Positions 57,075 through 63,600 of a stretch of 64,000 nucleotides of DNA are shown here, piece by piece. Every line of letters begins with the position of its first letter. Within the stretch, counting starts at the first letter, position 1. The position numbers were made by a program, and so were the translations under genes. Source of the stretch: Streptomyces sp. NBC_01463 (GTDB lineage: Bacteria > Actinomycetota > Actinomycetes > Streptomycetales > Streptomycetaceae); the NCBI GenBank assembly GCA_036227345.1, contig CP109468.1, positions 7,998,001-8,062,000 of the forward strand, written 5' to 3'. The notes beneath the pieces are model-generated. The model had not been told where the DNA came from, ran no database searches, and saw only the letters and a program-made list of their open reading frames with translations.

Positions 57075-57122
57075 CCAAGCGCACGTTCGGTTGTGTTCGG
57101 TTGCCTTCCGGAGGAGGGGGTC

Positions 57123-58466
57123 ATGGCGCACTCGTACGACAGGTCAGATCTGCCCGGCAGTGTCGCGGGACATCGGATGTCCCGGCGAAGTCTGCTGCGG
57201 GGCGCGGCAGTCGGAGCCGGCGCGGTCACGCTGCCCGCTCTGCTCACCGCCTGCGGCGGCGGACCCGGCGGTGACGGCAAGACCATCACCCTGGGATCGA
57301 ACTCGTCCGACCCCATTCCGAAGAAGGCGTTCGCCGACGCCTTCAAGGCCTACGCCGCCCAGTCGGACGGCCGCAAGGTGAAGGTCAACACCGTTGACCA
57401 CAACACCTTTCAGGAGAACATCAACCGATATCTCCAGGGCAAGCCCGACGACGTCTTCATGTGGTTCGCCGGAAATCGCATGCAGTTCTTCGCCAAGAAG
57501 GGGCTGCTGCACGACATCAGTGACAACTGGGAGGGCTACGAGGGATTCTCGGACGCCCTGAAGGCCCAGTCCACCGGCGAGGACGGCAAGCAGTACCTCA
57601 CGCCCTACTACTACTATCCGTGGGCCGTGTTCCACCGGAAGAGCCTCTTCACCGAGCGCGGCTATCAGGCGCCCAAAACGCTCGACGAGTACGTGGCCCT
57701 CGCCAAGCAGATGCAGAAGGACAAGCTGGACCCCATCGCGTTCTGCGACAAGGACGGCTGGCCCGCCATGGGCACCTTCGACTACATCAACATGCGGACC
57801 AACGGATACGAATTCCACAAGAGCCTGATGGCAGGCGAGGAGGCCTGGACCGACAAACGGGTCCGGGAGGTCTTCGACACCTGGCGGCGCCTGCTCCCGT
57901 ACTGCCAGCAGGGCGCCAACGGCCGTACCTGGCAGGAGGCCGCCACCAGCCTGCAGAAGCGCGAGGCGGGCATGACCGTCCTCGGACTGCCGCACCCCGG
58001 GGCCCAGTTCCCCAAGGGCGAACAGGCCGACCTCGACTTCTTCCCCTTCCCCGTCATCAACCCCGAGCACGGCCAGGACGCCGTCGAGGCGCCGATCGAC
58101 GGGTTCCTGCTCGCGAAGAAGTCGAAGAACCTCAAGAACAAGAAGAGCCTGGAGAGCGCCAAGGACCTGCTGAAGTGGCTCGCCACCGGCAAGGCCGAGG
58201 ACATCTACCTGAAGAGCGACCCGAACAACATCGCGGTCAGCGACCAGGCCGACACCTCCCAGTACTCCGCCATCCAGAAGAAGGCCGTCGAGCTGGTCTC
58301 CGGGGCGAAGCAGATCTCCCAGTTCCTGGACCGGGACACCCGCCCGGACTTCTCGTCCACGGTCATGATCCCGGCGATCCAGAAGTTCATCAGCAGCCCG
58401 AACGACGTGGACGGCCTGGTCAACGACATCGAACGGCAGAAGAAGACCATCTTCGCCTCGGACTGA
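57123..58466 (+). CDS. Sugar ABC importer, extracytoplasmic binding protein
   Basis: This 447-residue lipoprotein has a twin-arginine/lipoprotein signal (SRRSLLRGAAVGAGAV then LLTACGG). It has the cluster-D (maltose-type) binding fold, with YLQGKPDDVFMWFAGNRMQFFA, TPYYYYPWAVFHRKSLF and APIDGFLLAKKSKNLK. GGAGG precedes the ATG. It heads an operon with two MalFG-type permeases; no ATPase is present, so the shared MsiK-type ATPase of Streptomyces probably serves. With the alpha-galactosidase next to it, a galactoside is a reasonable substrate guess. Confidence 0.92.
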   Translation: MAHSYDRSDLPGSVAGHRMSRRSLLRGAAVGAGAVTLPALLTACGGGPGGDGKTITLGSNSSDPIPKKAFADAFKAYAAQSDGRKVKVNTVDHNTFQENINRYLQGKPDDVFMWFAGNRMQFFAKKGLLHDISDNWEGYEGFSDALKAQSTGEDGKQYLTPYYYYPWAVFHRKSLFTERGYQAPKTLDEYVALAKQMQKDKLDPIAFCDKDGWPAMGTFDYINMRTNGYEFHKSLMAGEEAWTDKRVREVFDTWRRLLPYCQQGANGRTWQEAATSLQKREAGMTVLGLPHPGAQFPKGEQADLDFFPFPVINPEHGQDAVEAPIDGFLLAKKSKNLKNKKSLESAKDLLKWLATGKAEDIYLKSDPNNIAVSDQADTSQYSAIQKKAVELVSGAKQISQFLDRDTRPDFSSTVMIPAIQKFISSPNDVDGLVNDIERQKKTIFASD

Positions 58467-58482
58467 ACCGGGAGTACCGACC

Positions 58483-59397
58483 GTGCCGTTCACCTCGGGG
58501 CGGCGCACCGGACGACGGGGCACGCGGCGGTTCACCCGCCGCGACCTCGTCGTGCTCGGGGCGCTGCTCGGCATACCCGTCCTGCTCGACATCGCCATCG
58601 TCTGGGGGCCGACCCTCGCCTCCGTCGTCCTCTCGTTCACCAGCTGGGACGGCATCGGCGACATCGAGTGGGTCGGGACGCGCAACTACACCAACCTGTT
58701 CACGAACTACCCGCAGTTCTGGCCGGCCGCCCGCCACAACCTGCTCTGGCTCGCCTTCCTCGGCCTGGTCGCCACGCCGTTCGGGCTGCTCCTCGCCGTA
58801 CTCATCGACAGGGGCGTGCGCTTCAGCCGCTTCTACCAGTCGACCCTGTATATGCCCGTCGTGCTCTCCCTCGCGGTGGTCGGCTTCATCGCGCAGCTGA
58901 TCTTCTCCCGCGACCAGGGAGCCCTCAACGCGATCGTCGGCGACACCAGGAACCCCACCGACTGGCTGGGCGACCCCGACCTCAACATCTGGATGGTCCT
59001 GCTGGCCGCCGCCTGGCGCCACACCGGCTACGTGATGATCCTCTACCTCGCCGGCCTCAAGGCCGTCGACTCCTCCCTCAAGGAGGCCGCCGCGATCGAC
59101 GGGGCGAGCGAGGCCCAGACCTTCTTCCGCATCGTCTTCCCCACGCTGCGCCCGGTCAACATCATCGTCGGCGTCATCACCGTCATCGAGTCGCTGCGCG
59201 CGTTCGACATCGTGTACGCGGTCAACCACGGCCGCAACGGCCTCGAACTGCTCTCGGTGCTCGTCACCGACAACATCATCGGCGAGGCCAGCCGGATCGG
59301 GTTCGGCTCCGCCATCGCCGTCGTCCTGCTGGCCGTCTCCCTGGGATTCGTCGTCACGTACCTGGTCCAGGAACTCCGAGGGGAGAAGAACCGATGA
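58483..59397 (+). CDS. Sugar ABC importer permease (MalF type)
   Basis: This 304-residue membrane protein has about six hydrophobic segments. The EAA loop lies near SSLKEAAAIDGASEAQTFFRI, the cytoplasmic contact with the ATPase. LGAVLGIPVLLDIAIVWG-type residues mark the first segment and SFTSWDGIGDIEWVGTRNY the following loop. The GTG start follows GGGAG. Its stop overlaps the next start by four bases. Confidence 0.93.
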   Translation: MPFTSGRRTGRRGTRRFTRRDLVVLGALLGIPVLLDIAIVWGPTLASVVLSFTSWDGIGDIEWVGTRNYTNLFTNYPQFWPAARHNLLWLAFLGLVATPFGLLLAVLIDRGVRFSRFYQSTLYMPVVLSLAVVGFIAQLIFSRDQGALNAIVGDTRNPTDWLGDPDLNIWMVLLAAAWRHTGYVMILYLAGLKAVDSSLKEAAAIDGASEAQTFFRIVFPTLRPVNIIVGVITVIESLRAFDIVYAVNHGRNGLELLSVLVTDNIIGEASRIGFGSAIAVVLLAVSLGFVVTYLVQELRGEKNR

Positions 59398-60308: not shown

Positions 60309-60417
60309 GCGACGGACGGGCCGGGCGGGGCGGTTCCGGAGGCCCGGGCGGTCCGGGCGCGCCAGGCCGGCCGGGCGGGTCAAAAATCCCTGTGTGCACG
60401 AAGGCTTGATGATTATG

Positions 60418-60661
60418 GTGGGGCGATCAGCACATGCACCTCCCGGTGCGCAGGGACCGCCTACTTCTCTCACAAGCCCGGCGGGCCCGTCCTTATCTCG
60501 GGAGGCACAGCGCCGGGGTGCCCGGTGCGCAGGCGACGGATACTTCTCCTGTCAAGAGAGGGACCCGGGTTCGAATCCCGGCCGCCGGTCCACGGACCGG
60601 AGGTAGCTCAGCGGCCCAGAGCACTTCGTTCCGTCACCGACCTTGATCTCGGGCACCCCAC
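60418..60661 (+). ncRNA. yrlA: Y RNA (YrlA-like) with a permuted tRNA mimic
   Basis: The 5' end GTGGGG-C-GATCAG (60418-60430) pairs with TTGATC (60643-60648) and CCCCAC (60656-60661). This forms the closing stem that holds the likely Ro site, with unpaired bases on both sides. A second stem, GACGGA/TCCGTC (60535-60540 with 60630-60635), encloses a tRNA-like module. Its T-arm is CCGGG-TTCGAAT-CCCGG (60565-60581). A closed acceptor follows, CCGCCGG (60582-60588) with CCGGAGG (60597-60603), one mismatch. TA and the D-arm GCTC-AGCGGCCCA-GAGC (60606-60622) come next. The order T-acceptor-D is a circular permutation of tRNA, as in bacterial YrlA RNAs. Ends are estimated from pairing; rsr follows 33 bases later. 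Confidence 0.8.
60442..60548 (+). repeat. Internal direct repeat within the Y RNA
   Basis: CCCGGTGCGCAGG followed by seven bases and TACTTCTC occurs at 60442-60469 and again at 60521-60548, exactly 79 bases apart. The first copy leads into a GCCC/GGGC hairpin enclosed by CCTCCCG/CGGGAGG, and the second into the tRNA-like module. Confidence 0.75.
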
Positions 60662-60694
60662 GCTGAGCTTCCCCTCCACAGGAGGGGGCCATTC

Positions 60695-62320
60695 ATGTCC
60701 CGTTTCAACAAGCGCGGTTCCCGTCCGGCCGCCGCCTCGCCCGTACGCAGCACCGGGACGCACACGCGCACCGCGGAGGGCGGCACCGGGTACCTCCGGG
60801 ACGCCAAGTCCGAGCTCTTCCTGCTGGCGGTGAGCAACTTCGTCACGCAGAACACCTTCTACGAGAAGGGCGAGGCCCGCGACGACCGCTACGCCCAGCT
60901 CGTCCGCAAGCTCGCGGTCAGCGACCCCGAGTGGGTCGCCGGACTCCTCAAGTGGCTGCGCGGCGAGGGCAACATGCGCACCGCCGCCCTGGTCGGTGCC
61001 GCCGAGTTCACGGCCGAGCGGCTGCTGAAGGAGGCGCCGGGCCATTCCCGTCAGACCGTCGACTCGGTGCTCCAGCGCGCCGACGAGCCCGGCGAACTGC
61101 TCGGCTACTGGACGTCCACGTACGGCCGCAGGCTTCCGAAGCCCCTGAAGCGCGGCGTCGCCGACGCCGTACAGCGTCTCTACAACGAGCGGAGCCTGCT
61201 CGCGTACGACACCGGCTCCAAGGGCTACCGCTTCGGCGACGTCCTCAACCTCGTCCACCCCAGCCCCGCCGACGACAAGCCCTGGCAGGGAGCGCTGTTC
61301 AAGCACGCCATCGACCGGCGCAAGAACCGGGACGAGGAGATACCGACCGTCCTCCCCATGCTGCGCGCCCGCGACGCGCTGATGAGGATGCCGGCCGAGG
61401 ACCGCCGCGGTGTCCTTGAGGACCCCCGGGTGACGGACCTGTTCCGCGAGGCAGGCATGACATGGGAGGCGCTGGCCGGCTGGCTCCAGGGCCCCATGGA
61501 CGCGAAGGCGTGGGAGGCGGTCATACCCTCCATGGGGTACATGGCGCTGCTGCGCAACCTCCGGAACTTCGACGAGGCGGGCGTCGGCGACGAGGTGGCC
61601 GAGCAGGTGGCGAAGCGGCTCTCCGACCCCGAGCAGGTCGCCCGGTCACGGCAGTTGCCCATGCGGTTCTACTCCGCGTTCAACGCCGCGCCGTCCCTGC
61701 GCTGGGGACACGCACTCGACCAGGCGCTCACCTGCTCGCTCTCCAGCATTCCGCAGCTGGGCGGGCGGACGCTGATCCTCGTCGACACGTCGTCGTCGAT
61801 GGACGCGTCGTTCTCCCGCGACGGCTCCCTCATGCGGTGGGACGCCGCGGCCCTCTTCGGCATCGCGCTGGGGCGGCGGTGCGCGAAGGCGGACGTGGTG
61901 TCGTTCTCCTCGGCCCGCCAGTACTGGGACCAGCCGCCCGGTGCGAGGACGAAGGCGTTCCGCGTCACCCTGGGGGGCTCCCTGCTCGGTGACGTCCGGA
62001 AGTGGAAGGACGGGGGCTGGTTCCTCGGCGGGGGCACCGATACGGCCCCGGCGCTCCGCGAGACGTTCCGCGGCCACGACCGGGTCGTCATCGTCACCGA
62101 CGAACAGGCAGGCCACGACGCACAGGAGGTCACCGAGGCGATTCCGGCGGCGACCCCGATGTACACCTGGAACCTCGCCGGGTACGAAGCCGGGCACACC
62201 CCGTCCGGCCAGGGCGCGCGGCACACCTTCGGCGGCCTCACCGACCAGGCGTTCCGCATGATCCCGCTGCTCGAAGCGGGCCGGGACGCGGCGTGGCCGT
62301 GGGAAACCGCGGCCGTCTGA
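60695..62320 (+). CDS. rsr: Rsr: TROVE and vWA domain protein, bacterial Ro60 homologue
   Basis: This 541-residue RNA-binding ring protein has a TROVE HEAT-repeat region over residues 1-350: AEGGTGYLRDAKSELFLLAVSNF, WVAGLLKWLRGEGNMRTAAL and VIPSMGYMALLRNLRNFDEAGV are clear. The C-terminal vWA domain has a complete MIDAS: VDTSSSMDAS, GGGTDTAPAL and VIVTDEQAG. Ro60 proteins bind misfolded RNA in the central hole and Y RNA on the outside, and in bacteria work with PNPase. AGGAGG lies ten bases before ATG 60695. The Y RNA encoded just upstream is its expected partner. Confidence 0.95.
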   Translation: MSRFNKRGSRPAAASPVRSTGTHTRTAEGGTGYLRDAKSELFLLAVSNFVTQNTFYEKGEARDDRYAQLVRKLAVSDPEWVAGLLKWLRGEGNMRTAALVGAAEFTAERLLKEAPGHSRQTVDSVLQRADEPGELLGYWTSTYGRRLPKPLKRGVADAVQRLYNERSLLAYDTGSKGYRFGDVLNLVHPSPADDKPWQGALFKHAIDRRKNRDEEIPTVLPMLRARDALMRMPAEDRRGVLEDPRVTDLFREAGMTWEALAGWLQGPMDAKAWEAVIPSMGYMALLRNLRNFDEAGVGDEVAEQVAKRLSDPEQVARSRQLPMRFYSAFNAAPSLRWGHALDQALTCSLSSIPQLGGRTLILVDTSSSMDASFSRDGSLMRWDAAALFGIALGRRCAKADVVSFSSARQYWDQPPGARTKAFRVTLGGSLLGDVRKWKDGGWFLGGGTDTAPALRETFRGHDRVVIVTDEQAGHDAQEVTEAIPAATPMYTWNLAGYEAGHTPSGQGARHTFGGLTDQAFRMIPLLEAGRDAAWPWETAAV

Positions 62321-62350: not shown

Positions 62351-63475
62351 TCACGGTCGTTGGCGCGGGGTCGCCAGGGAGATCATGCGGTGCATGACGG
62401 CCGTCGGGATGGCGGGGTTCCGGGCGGCCGCCTCGGCACAGTGGTCATCGAGGAGCGAGGAGACCAGGGCGTCCGCCGGCAGTGCCGGATTCCGCCGGGC
62501 CGAGCTGTGGACATGGTGATCGGCGTCGCCGGTCAGCCTGACAGCGGATGCCGCGGACAGGCGCGGGTCGAGGGCGGCCCTCGTCCGCACGAGGGCGTCG
62601 GGGTCGTGGCTGAACCGTTCGACCAGAAGGGCGGACGAAGCGGGGTCGTCGAGTGCCAGGAGGCGCATCCGGGGGGCCGGGTCCTCCGCGAAGCGGAGCA
62701 GGCCGTGGCGGGGGAAGTTGGGGTGATTGCGCGGGCGCCCCGGAAAGGAGAAGCTGCCGGACCACCAGCTCCACACCTCCAGGAGCAGGTCCGCCGGGGC
62801 GTCCTCGCAGGACTCGCTGAGGAAGAGGCGTACGACGCGGTCCGTGTCGTGCGAGAGGAGTTCCACGACGTCCGGCGGAAGGCGTGGGGCGCGGGCCACA
62901 CTCCGGCGGATCAGCAGGTTCGGCGAGGCGGCCAGCCGGCGCATCGCGTCGGTGTCGGAGTGGAGCGCGGCGATCCACCACACCGCGTACGTACGGGAGT
63001 CGGCGGTGATATCGGGCACGGCGGCCGCCATCGTGGCGATCTCGGCCGGGGTCGACGGGGGCCGGGACCCGGGGGACGGCGGATTCGCCACCCCGATGCG
63101 CGCCCCGGATGCCCGGTACGAGGCCTGGTCCACCGCCAGCTCCGCCAGAACGGCGCGCAGCGCCGGGTCGTCGGTCGCGGCGAGGAGCCGGCTCCACTGG
63201 GCCGGCGATAGCCTCCCCGCTTCCGCTGCCGTGACCCGGACACTCTTGGCCGGGTGCACGACCGCCGCGTCGAGCACGCCGTCCGGCAGGTCGTCGCGGT
63301 ACAGGAAGTACACACAGGGCCGTGGGCCCGCGTCGAAGAGACCGACCAGCACCTCCGGCGGCGCGGCCGGGTTGTTCCCCAGACCGCGCAGCCACGCCAC
63401 GGCGGTGTCCTCGGAGGGACGAAGGCTCGCGGACAGTGCGGTCCAGGGGTTCGGATCGGCATCACTTCCGGCCAT
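62351..63475 (-). CDS. Leucine-rich-repeat-variant (LRV) protein
   Basis: This 374-residue soluble protein consists of helical repeats of the LRV type, seen as LAASPNLLIRRSVARAPRL, LSHDTDRVVRLFLSESC and LTGDADHHVHSSARRNPALP. The pattern of about 24 residues with N/D-P-x-x-x-V-R turns recurs. These are protein- or nucleic-acid-binding superhelices; no enzyme motif is visible. ATG 63475 is chosen as start; the ribosome site is weak. It converges on rsr, with 30 bases between the stops, and may be an unrelated neighbour. Confidence 0.8.
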   Translation of the reverse strand: MAGSDADPNPWTALSASLRPSEDTAVAWLRGLGNNPAAPPEVLVGLFDAGPRPCVYFLYRDDLPDGVLDAAVVHPAKSVRVTAAEAGRLSPAQWSRLLAATDDPALRAVLAELAVDQASYRASGARIGVANPPSPGSRPPSTPAEIATMAAAVPDITADSRTYAVWWIAALHSDTDAMRRLAASPNLLIRRSVARAPRLPPDVVELLSHDTDRVVRLFLSESCEDAPADLLLEVWSWWSGSFSFPGRPRNHPNFPRHGLLRFAEDPAPRMRLLALDDPASSALLVERFSHDPDALVRTRAALDPRLSAASAVRLTGDADHHVHSSARRNPALPADALVSSLLDDHCAEAAARNPAIPTAVMHRMISLATPRQRP

Positions 63476-63600
63476 CCGCCGATTGAACAGGCACGGAACG
63501 GAAGGATCAAGGCGCTCCGGAGCCCGGGAGGTACCTCCGATCGAGTCGCACGGGCTCACCGGCCGAAGCGGTTGTCAGTGGTGGGTGCGATCCTGCGGGT

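Follow-up and report, generated by a model that had tools for sequence, protein, structure and literature searches.

Two repeated units in front of rsr

The DNA directly in front of rsr in the window (the whole 64,000-nt stretch of Streptomyces sp. NBC_01463 analyzed here) probably carries an array of two Y RNAs, a reading to which we assign a probability of about 0.8 on the basis of sequence comparison. The two, unit A and unit B, are predicted to be separate RNA domains built on a common base, and unit A contains a circularly permuted tRNA mimic. The features are, in order along the window:

60414..60419, + strand: candidate −10-like box TATGGT before unit B, from comparison of relatives
about 60434..60510, + strand: unit B, putative Y RNA without tRNA mimic, YrlB-like (model R2, alignment A2, free fold)
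60515..60659, + strand: unit A, 145 nt, putative Y RNA with permuted tRNA mimic (covariation, model R1)
60515-60524 / 60650-60659, + strand: closing stem of unit A, GGGGTGCCCG / CGGGCACCCC (covariation)
60525..60533, + strand: GTGCGCAGG, conserved 5′ side of the internal loop, presumed Rsr-binding face
60532..60539, + strand: 5′ strand of helix 2, partner 60631-60638 (covariation)
60541..60546, + strand: UACUUC, conserved motif after helix 2 (189 units compared)
60544..60560, + strand: anticodon-arm-like hairpin TTCTC-CTGTCAA-GAGAG, 5 bp, 7-nt loop, "anticodon" GUC
60565..60581, + strand: T-arm with loop TTCGAAT (helix 3)
60582..60603, + strand: acceptor-like stem closed by loop CACG, without a free 3′ CCA (helix 4)
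60604-60605 and 60606-60622, + strand: U8-A9-like TA, then D-arm GCTC/GAGC with GG in the loop
60641-60649, + strand: CCTTGATCT, 3′ side of the internal loop, of the same presumed role as its 5′ side
60670..60688, + strand: hairpin TCCCCTCC-ACA-GGAGGGGG around the presumed rsr ribosome-binding site
60695..62320 including stop, + strand: rsr, Ro60/TROVE-like protein of 541 aa (PF05731, PDB TROVE chains)

The initial annotation had described this region as one RNA of 240-270 nt, enclosed by a stem GTGGGG/CCCCAC spanning about 245 nt, whereas comparison gave two units of about 77 nt and 145 nt. The enclosing stem is out of register: the partner of CGGGCACCCC is GGGGTGCCCG at 60515, so that the 3′ strand of the proposed outer stem is part of the unit A closing stem, in its outer four pairs GGGG/CCCC, and the supposed extra hairpins at 60440-60530 correspond to the separate unit B plus the 5′ strand of unit A. 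An unconstrained fold of 60418-60661 consisted of two separate domains, one of them unit B, with pairing probabilities of 0.81-0.83 for GGGGTGCCCG/CGGGCACCCC versus 0.15-0.19 for the outer stem. The outer stem can form, since forcing it cost little (−104.7 versus −106.1 kcal/mol for the free fold), and because this gap is small the case against it rests on the comparison. The folding energy of 60410-60670 relative to shuffled sequences was uninformative in this GC-rich DNA (z = −0.45). Among the relatives, the stretch following the −10-like box, including GTGGGG, which overlaps the end of TATGGT, and GATCA, varies, so that the 5′ strand of the outer stem is not kept; its 3′ strand belongs to a conserved closing stem whose inner six pairs covary, and the units occur singly and in different orders. 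A single 245-nt Y RNA with new extra hairpins was rejected on these grounds, and we consider it exceedingly improbable.

A TANNNT hexamer preceded unit B in all eight distinct rows of a comparison for which 12 loci were tried and 3 gave no row. The hexamer ended exactly 14 nt before ATGCACC/ACGCACC in five of the eight (the window, L002, L003, L005 and L009), and 11 or 17 nt before it in the other three.

The two-unit reading draws on the regions upstream of 80 related rsr loci, chosen as the best 80 out of 370 relatives that are mostly Streptomyces. Our own motif script found one to three repeated units on a common base in 79 of these 80 loci as well as in the window; L030 was the one related locus in which the script found no unit. 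The common base comprises the closing stem, GUGCGC(A)GG, helix 2 and UACUUC, followed on the 3′ side by CCGAC-UUGAUCU and the closing stem. The motif TACTTC was present in 176/189 units of every class, and T[AC]CTTC in 188/189. The commonest orders among the 81 loci were B-A (23), A-B-A (22) and A-B (10), and unit A stood by itself in six. Of 12 units of about 100 nt, 6 had a T-arm-like motif without a D-arm. Units of this size with that combination, which are between YrlA and YrlB in build, were seen at L001:2207-2315, L004:2357-2467 and L014:2299-2411.

Unit B is closed by CCTCCCG (60439-60445) and CGGGAGG (60499-60505), and it matched model R2, whose training set includes unit B itself, with 72.3 bits (E 1.3e-13). 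Its closing stem is almost invariant and therefore provides no covariation evidence. Helix 2 of unit B was examined by swapping strands because its alignment is poor; a 4-nt partner was present in 66 of 73 units (swaps: mean 42.8, maximum 52). The window copy of unit B lacks one conserved G, with UUAUCU for UUGAUCU. In Salmonella, YrlB is not known to have a tRNA-like domain.

The tRNA mimic of unit A and its anticodon-like arm

We analyzed covariation in 28 unit-A sequences, aligned by sequence only, covering 29 pairs in five helices, against 500 shuffles. Paired cells reached 98.1% (79.8% in shuffles), double-change cells numbered 139 (46.4 in shuffles) and the covariation score was 0.497 (0.161 in shuffles); none of the 500 shuffles attained any of the five measures, and versions of the structure slid along the alignment paired at most 48.6% of cells. 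Helix 1, the inner six pairs of the closing stem, was paired in 100% of cells and covaries; helix 2 was paired in 96.4%, with double changes in 5 of 7 counted pairs, so that together they showed double changes in 9 of 13. The T-arm (helix 3) was paired in 100% of cells and the acceptor-like helix 4 in 95.9%, with double changes in 6 of its 7 pairs. The D-stem is invariant in alignment A1 and therefore gives no covariation information, and A1 and A2 show the internal loop GTGCGCAGG/CCTTGATCT to be mostly invariant. The four outermost pairs of the closing stem were kept in 205 of 248 cells in 62 units of the same stem type and covary weakly (observed 82.7%; swaps: mean 78.1%, maximum 82.3%). Compensatory changes thus support the mimic together with the inner base stem; they do not support the 245-nt outer stem proposed earlier. 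The T-arm, acceptor-like stem, TA pair and D-arm with GG are all present, in agreement with the initial annotation. The window copy has a non-standard pair in helix 2 (C534/A636) and one G.A mismatch in the acceptor-like stem (60584/60601).

Model R1, which has the window sequence among its 28, matched unit A with 123 bits (E 3.8e-25), and its next best match in the window reached 10.3 bits (E = 1.2). Like YrlA, unit A has a stem joining its 5′ and 3′ ends and a T-acceptor-D tRNA-like domain, and it is encoded next to an Rsr/Ro60 gene. The consensus of RF02553 has the same T-acceptor-D order. An Rfam scan of the window found nothing at gathering level; the YrlA model scored the window copy at 19.1 bits against a gathering threshold of 69, so that unit A is not filed as an RF02553 member. 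In the whole genome, the best match to RF02553 was a tandem tRNA-Asn pair (38.4 bits).

In the tRNA-like part of unit A, the anticodon-like arm comes first, followed by the variable loop, the T-arm, the closed acceptor stem and the D-arm; the anticodon-arm-like hairpin (free-fold probability 0.58-0.70) directly precedes the variable loop. The mimic had been described as a tRNA cut open at the anticodon. This does not apply to the window copy, in which the local hairpin places the cut between D-arm and anticodon arm, but it does apply to other relatives. The window and L001-L141 together gave 151 distinct unit-A sequences, 68 of them with a local arm of 5 bp. The loop of this arm read CTNNN(A/G/C)A in 66 of the 68, and the variable loop was 5 nt long in 66, the window unit being one of two with 4 nt. 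In another 51, the strand after the D-arm pairs over 5 bp with the strand before the T-arm, and 49 of them had a 5-nt variable loop plus one spacer base; this long-range arrangement corresponds to a tRNA opened inside its anticodon loop. Under the strict rules no unit had both kinds of arm (0/151), and 32, including the highest-ranked relative, L001, fitted neither. With free wobble pairing, 21 of the 68 local units could form a long-range stem, a number not above that given by swapped strands (mean 25.5), and 0 of the 51 long-range units a local one. Among GTCCAG-stem-type units, a count independent of selection by arm class, 55/68 had the full local arm and 62/68 the loop pattern.

When strands were swapped 1000 times among the 151 units, the observed number of local arms, 66, compared with a mean of 25.4 and a maximum of 36, and that of long-range arms, 80, with 19.7 and 31. 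Double-change cells numbered 12 (1.6 in shuffles) for the local and 36 (8.9) for the long-range arm. Alignments A3 and A4 were selected by anticodon-arm class and dereplicated (31/78 and 24/51, the long rows L008 and L035 being left out of A4), so their paired percentages lean towards the model. Two measures were weak: for the local arm, double-change pairs were matched by 169/500 shuffles and pair types by 19/500, and for the long-range arm by 9 and 41 of 500. The anticodon-like triplet varies (GUC, GUU, GAU, CAU, CUU and others), so that the shape of the arm is kept and codon reading is not; covariation of the arm in spite of this variation suggests that selection acts on its shape. By eye, a similar hairpin was seen in four loci from another family of the class, with five pairs in L228 and L230 and with four in L220 and L227.

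ARAGORN reads 60516-60588 as tRNA-Asp(gtc). A tRNA-Asp with complete cloverleaf and free 3′ end was rejected, as the stretch is part of the covarying unit and, judged from the sequence, its T-arm leads into a hairpin that is closed. The ARAGORN call would be explained by a tRNA gene in decay or by a cluster of tandem tRNAs, and R1 gives 53.8 bits to tandem tRNA-Asn genes at another place in the genome; considering that the mimic is enclosed by covarying helices, that its acceptor end is closed and that full units track Rsr across genomes, we judge such an origin of the signal highly improbable. A tRNA finder can misread RNAs of the unit A kind as tRNAs, and the Rfam model misses unit A.

The two tRNA-Asn genes lie four bases apart at L143:1467-1618 (near C1:6134444). 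The 3′ half of one tRNA and the 5′ half of its neighbor reproduce the permuted mimic, making such pairs a possible candidate for its origin.

Association of the units with Rsr

The initial annotation had reported a full-length TROVE Rsr gene next to the RNA, which was borne out (60695-62320). The protein matched PF05731 (TROVE) with 55.7 bits (cut-off 23) over residues 269-331 only, and PDB TROVE chains 9l5y/9kop over residues 22-208 (E 2.6e-29); it is the single TROVE match in the 9.07-Mb genome. Against NCBIfam NF041674, the Rsr equivalog, it scored 21.8 bits versus a cut-off of 900, and the window Rsr is a TROVE protein outside that narrow group. The upstream genes at 57093-58466 and 58483-59397 match ABC-transporter families. 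Convergent with rsr is a 402-aa gene on the − strand (62351-63559), for which a Pfam/NCBIfam profile search gave no match at E up to 0.001. A GAGG-bearing hairpin stands upstream of rsr in 16 of 81 regions, including the window; on this count, the idea that hairpins holding the ribosome-binding site generally precede rsr was dropped. At the equivalent place, 40 of the 80 related loci have GAATTC-GGGG-GAATTC.

To relate the units to Rsr, we compared 121 genomes of the genus, counting as a unit a full-length R1 match of at least 57.8 bits or an R2 match with E ≤ 0.001. Units were present in 69/69 genomes with a substantial Rsr and in 0/52 others. An Rsr match occurred in 73 of the 121, four of them (G023, G047, G085 and G090) having short fragments only and no units; counting these as Rsr-positive gives a table of 69/4/0/48. 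The R1 floor was set after viewing the match list and excludes partial matches, and the strict filters lose weak matches; because of these filters and the relatedness of the genomes, a formal p-value overstates the association. The partial R1 matches (about 54-56 bits, model positions 34/39-117) occur in many genomes with or without Rsr, and the one that was checked, in the genome of the window, is the tandem tRNA-Asn pair. The co-occurrence supports as likely the earlier proposal that Rsr is the partner of the RNA.

The genome contains a further unit between metK and priA (L144:1502-1606 = G000:C1:7433357-7433461), which scored 47.7 bits with R2 and 42.9 bits with R1 and lacks the T- and D-arm mimic. 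At least 10 other genomes also have units at this site (L151-L153, L177, L178 and L210-L214), two of them each in L210, L211 and L212. A literature search for an sRNA between metK and priA found none.

The structures could instead form a cis-acting 5′ leader of rsr that binds Rsr or stalls transcription, without free Y RNAs. Unit A ends 35 nt upstream of the rsr start codon, the presumed ribosome-binding site lies inside a hairpin, and in L210-L213 the end of the metK-priA unit is 6-8 bases away from the downstream priA match, the edge of which may not be the priA start. Against this, units also lie away from rsr, yet among the 121 genomes only where Rsr is present, and the tRNA mimic is kept in a detail that a leader does not need. 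We regard a leader without free Y RNAs as unlikely; a cis-leader role and a Y RNA role may coexist.

Unit A was also found at four places (L215-L218) with no Rsr match within the fetched stretch. On a linear Streptomyces plasmid, L254:3001-3141 is 80.7% identical to 143 nt of the window array, and no Rsr is listed within about 3 kb in its gene table, which is incomplete.

Proposed function and relation to known Y RNAs

As Y RNAs, the units are likely to bind Rsr, with the mimic docking an effector, PNPase by analogy. Rsr would bind the common base of both RNAs (closing stem and internal loop GUGCGC/UUGAUCU), and the mimic of unit A would dock a tRNA-recognizing partner, for which the Deinococcus system suggests PNPase. 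With unit B, Rsr would form a particle lacking a mimic-docked partner, so that the two RNAs would form alternative Rsr particles. The array and rsr may be co-transcribed, in which case the hairpin ahead of the start codon would set the RNA:protein output, and the metK-priA unit could be a third Y RNA serving the same Rsr. RNAs with and without mimic, plus a dispersed copy, would offer a simple system for studying effector choice by Rsr. Judged by sequence, the T-loop and D-loop of unit A are compatible with substrates of TruB and DusA.

Salmonella YrlA is reportedly the subject of a 2014 paper by Chen et al. According to the accessible part of PMC8394870, YrlA RNAs have 90-150 nt, a terminal stem, a tRNA-like domain and a gene beside rsr; at 145 nt, unit A falls within this range, contrary to the earlier suggestion that the RNA is larger than known YrlA RNAs. 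The descriptions of YrlA in the same accessible part name D, T and acceptor arms only, whereas unit A has a local anticodon-like arm. The available text of PMC7790460 describes a Salmonella rsr-yrlBA-rtcBA operon in which two Y RNA genes adjoin rsr, as in the window, YrlA having the tRNA-like domain. Unlike in that operon, the window RNAs precede rsr, and their upstream neighbors are the ABC transporter genes. The Deinococcus RYPER complex combines Rsr, a Y RNA and PNPase (PMC4726728, PMC8394870, both as far as accessible); the window likewise has an Rsr-like protein and an adjacent Y RNA, and docking of PNPase there would be by analogy. A literature search, with the primary YrlA papers outside its reach and other sources accessible in part, found no Y RNA with an anticodon arm and no Streptomyces array. 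Y RNAs that mimic tRNA are already known; the anticodon-arm variant is undescribed in the literature searched.

We further put forward, tentatively and with considerable doubt, that actinobacterial Y RNAs may represent a whole permuted tRNA including the anticodon arm, in two interchangeable builds, with the cut either at position 26 or inside the anticodon loop. Proteins directed at tRNA, such as anticodon-loop enzymes or nucleases, would then be baited or docked by the arm on an Rsr platform supplied by several loci. The mimic itself would perhaps descend from two tandem tRNA genes, combining the 3′ half of the first with the 5′ half of the second. A displayed anticodon loop would suit the possibility, raised for Salmonella in the accessible part of PMC7790460, that YrlA is a competitive inhibitor of an anticodon nuclease.

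Gordonia phage BearBQ and the prophage prophiGD43A-5 bear a likeness to the window: by eye, T-acceptor-D mimics adjoin a gene annotated in both as Ro-like RNA binding protein, and hairpins with 7-nt loops of the CUNNN(A/C)A type precede the mimics. Their base sequences differ from those of the window units, the hairpins have four of five pairs, and prophiGD43A-5 seems to have a longer array than the window. In this prophage, an annotated tRNA-Thr(tgt) (L253:2308-2386) overlies one of several Y RNA-like units recognized by eye, and is possibly a misannotated Y RNA.
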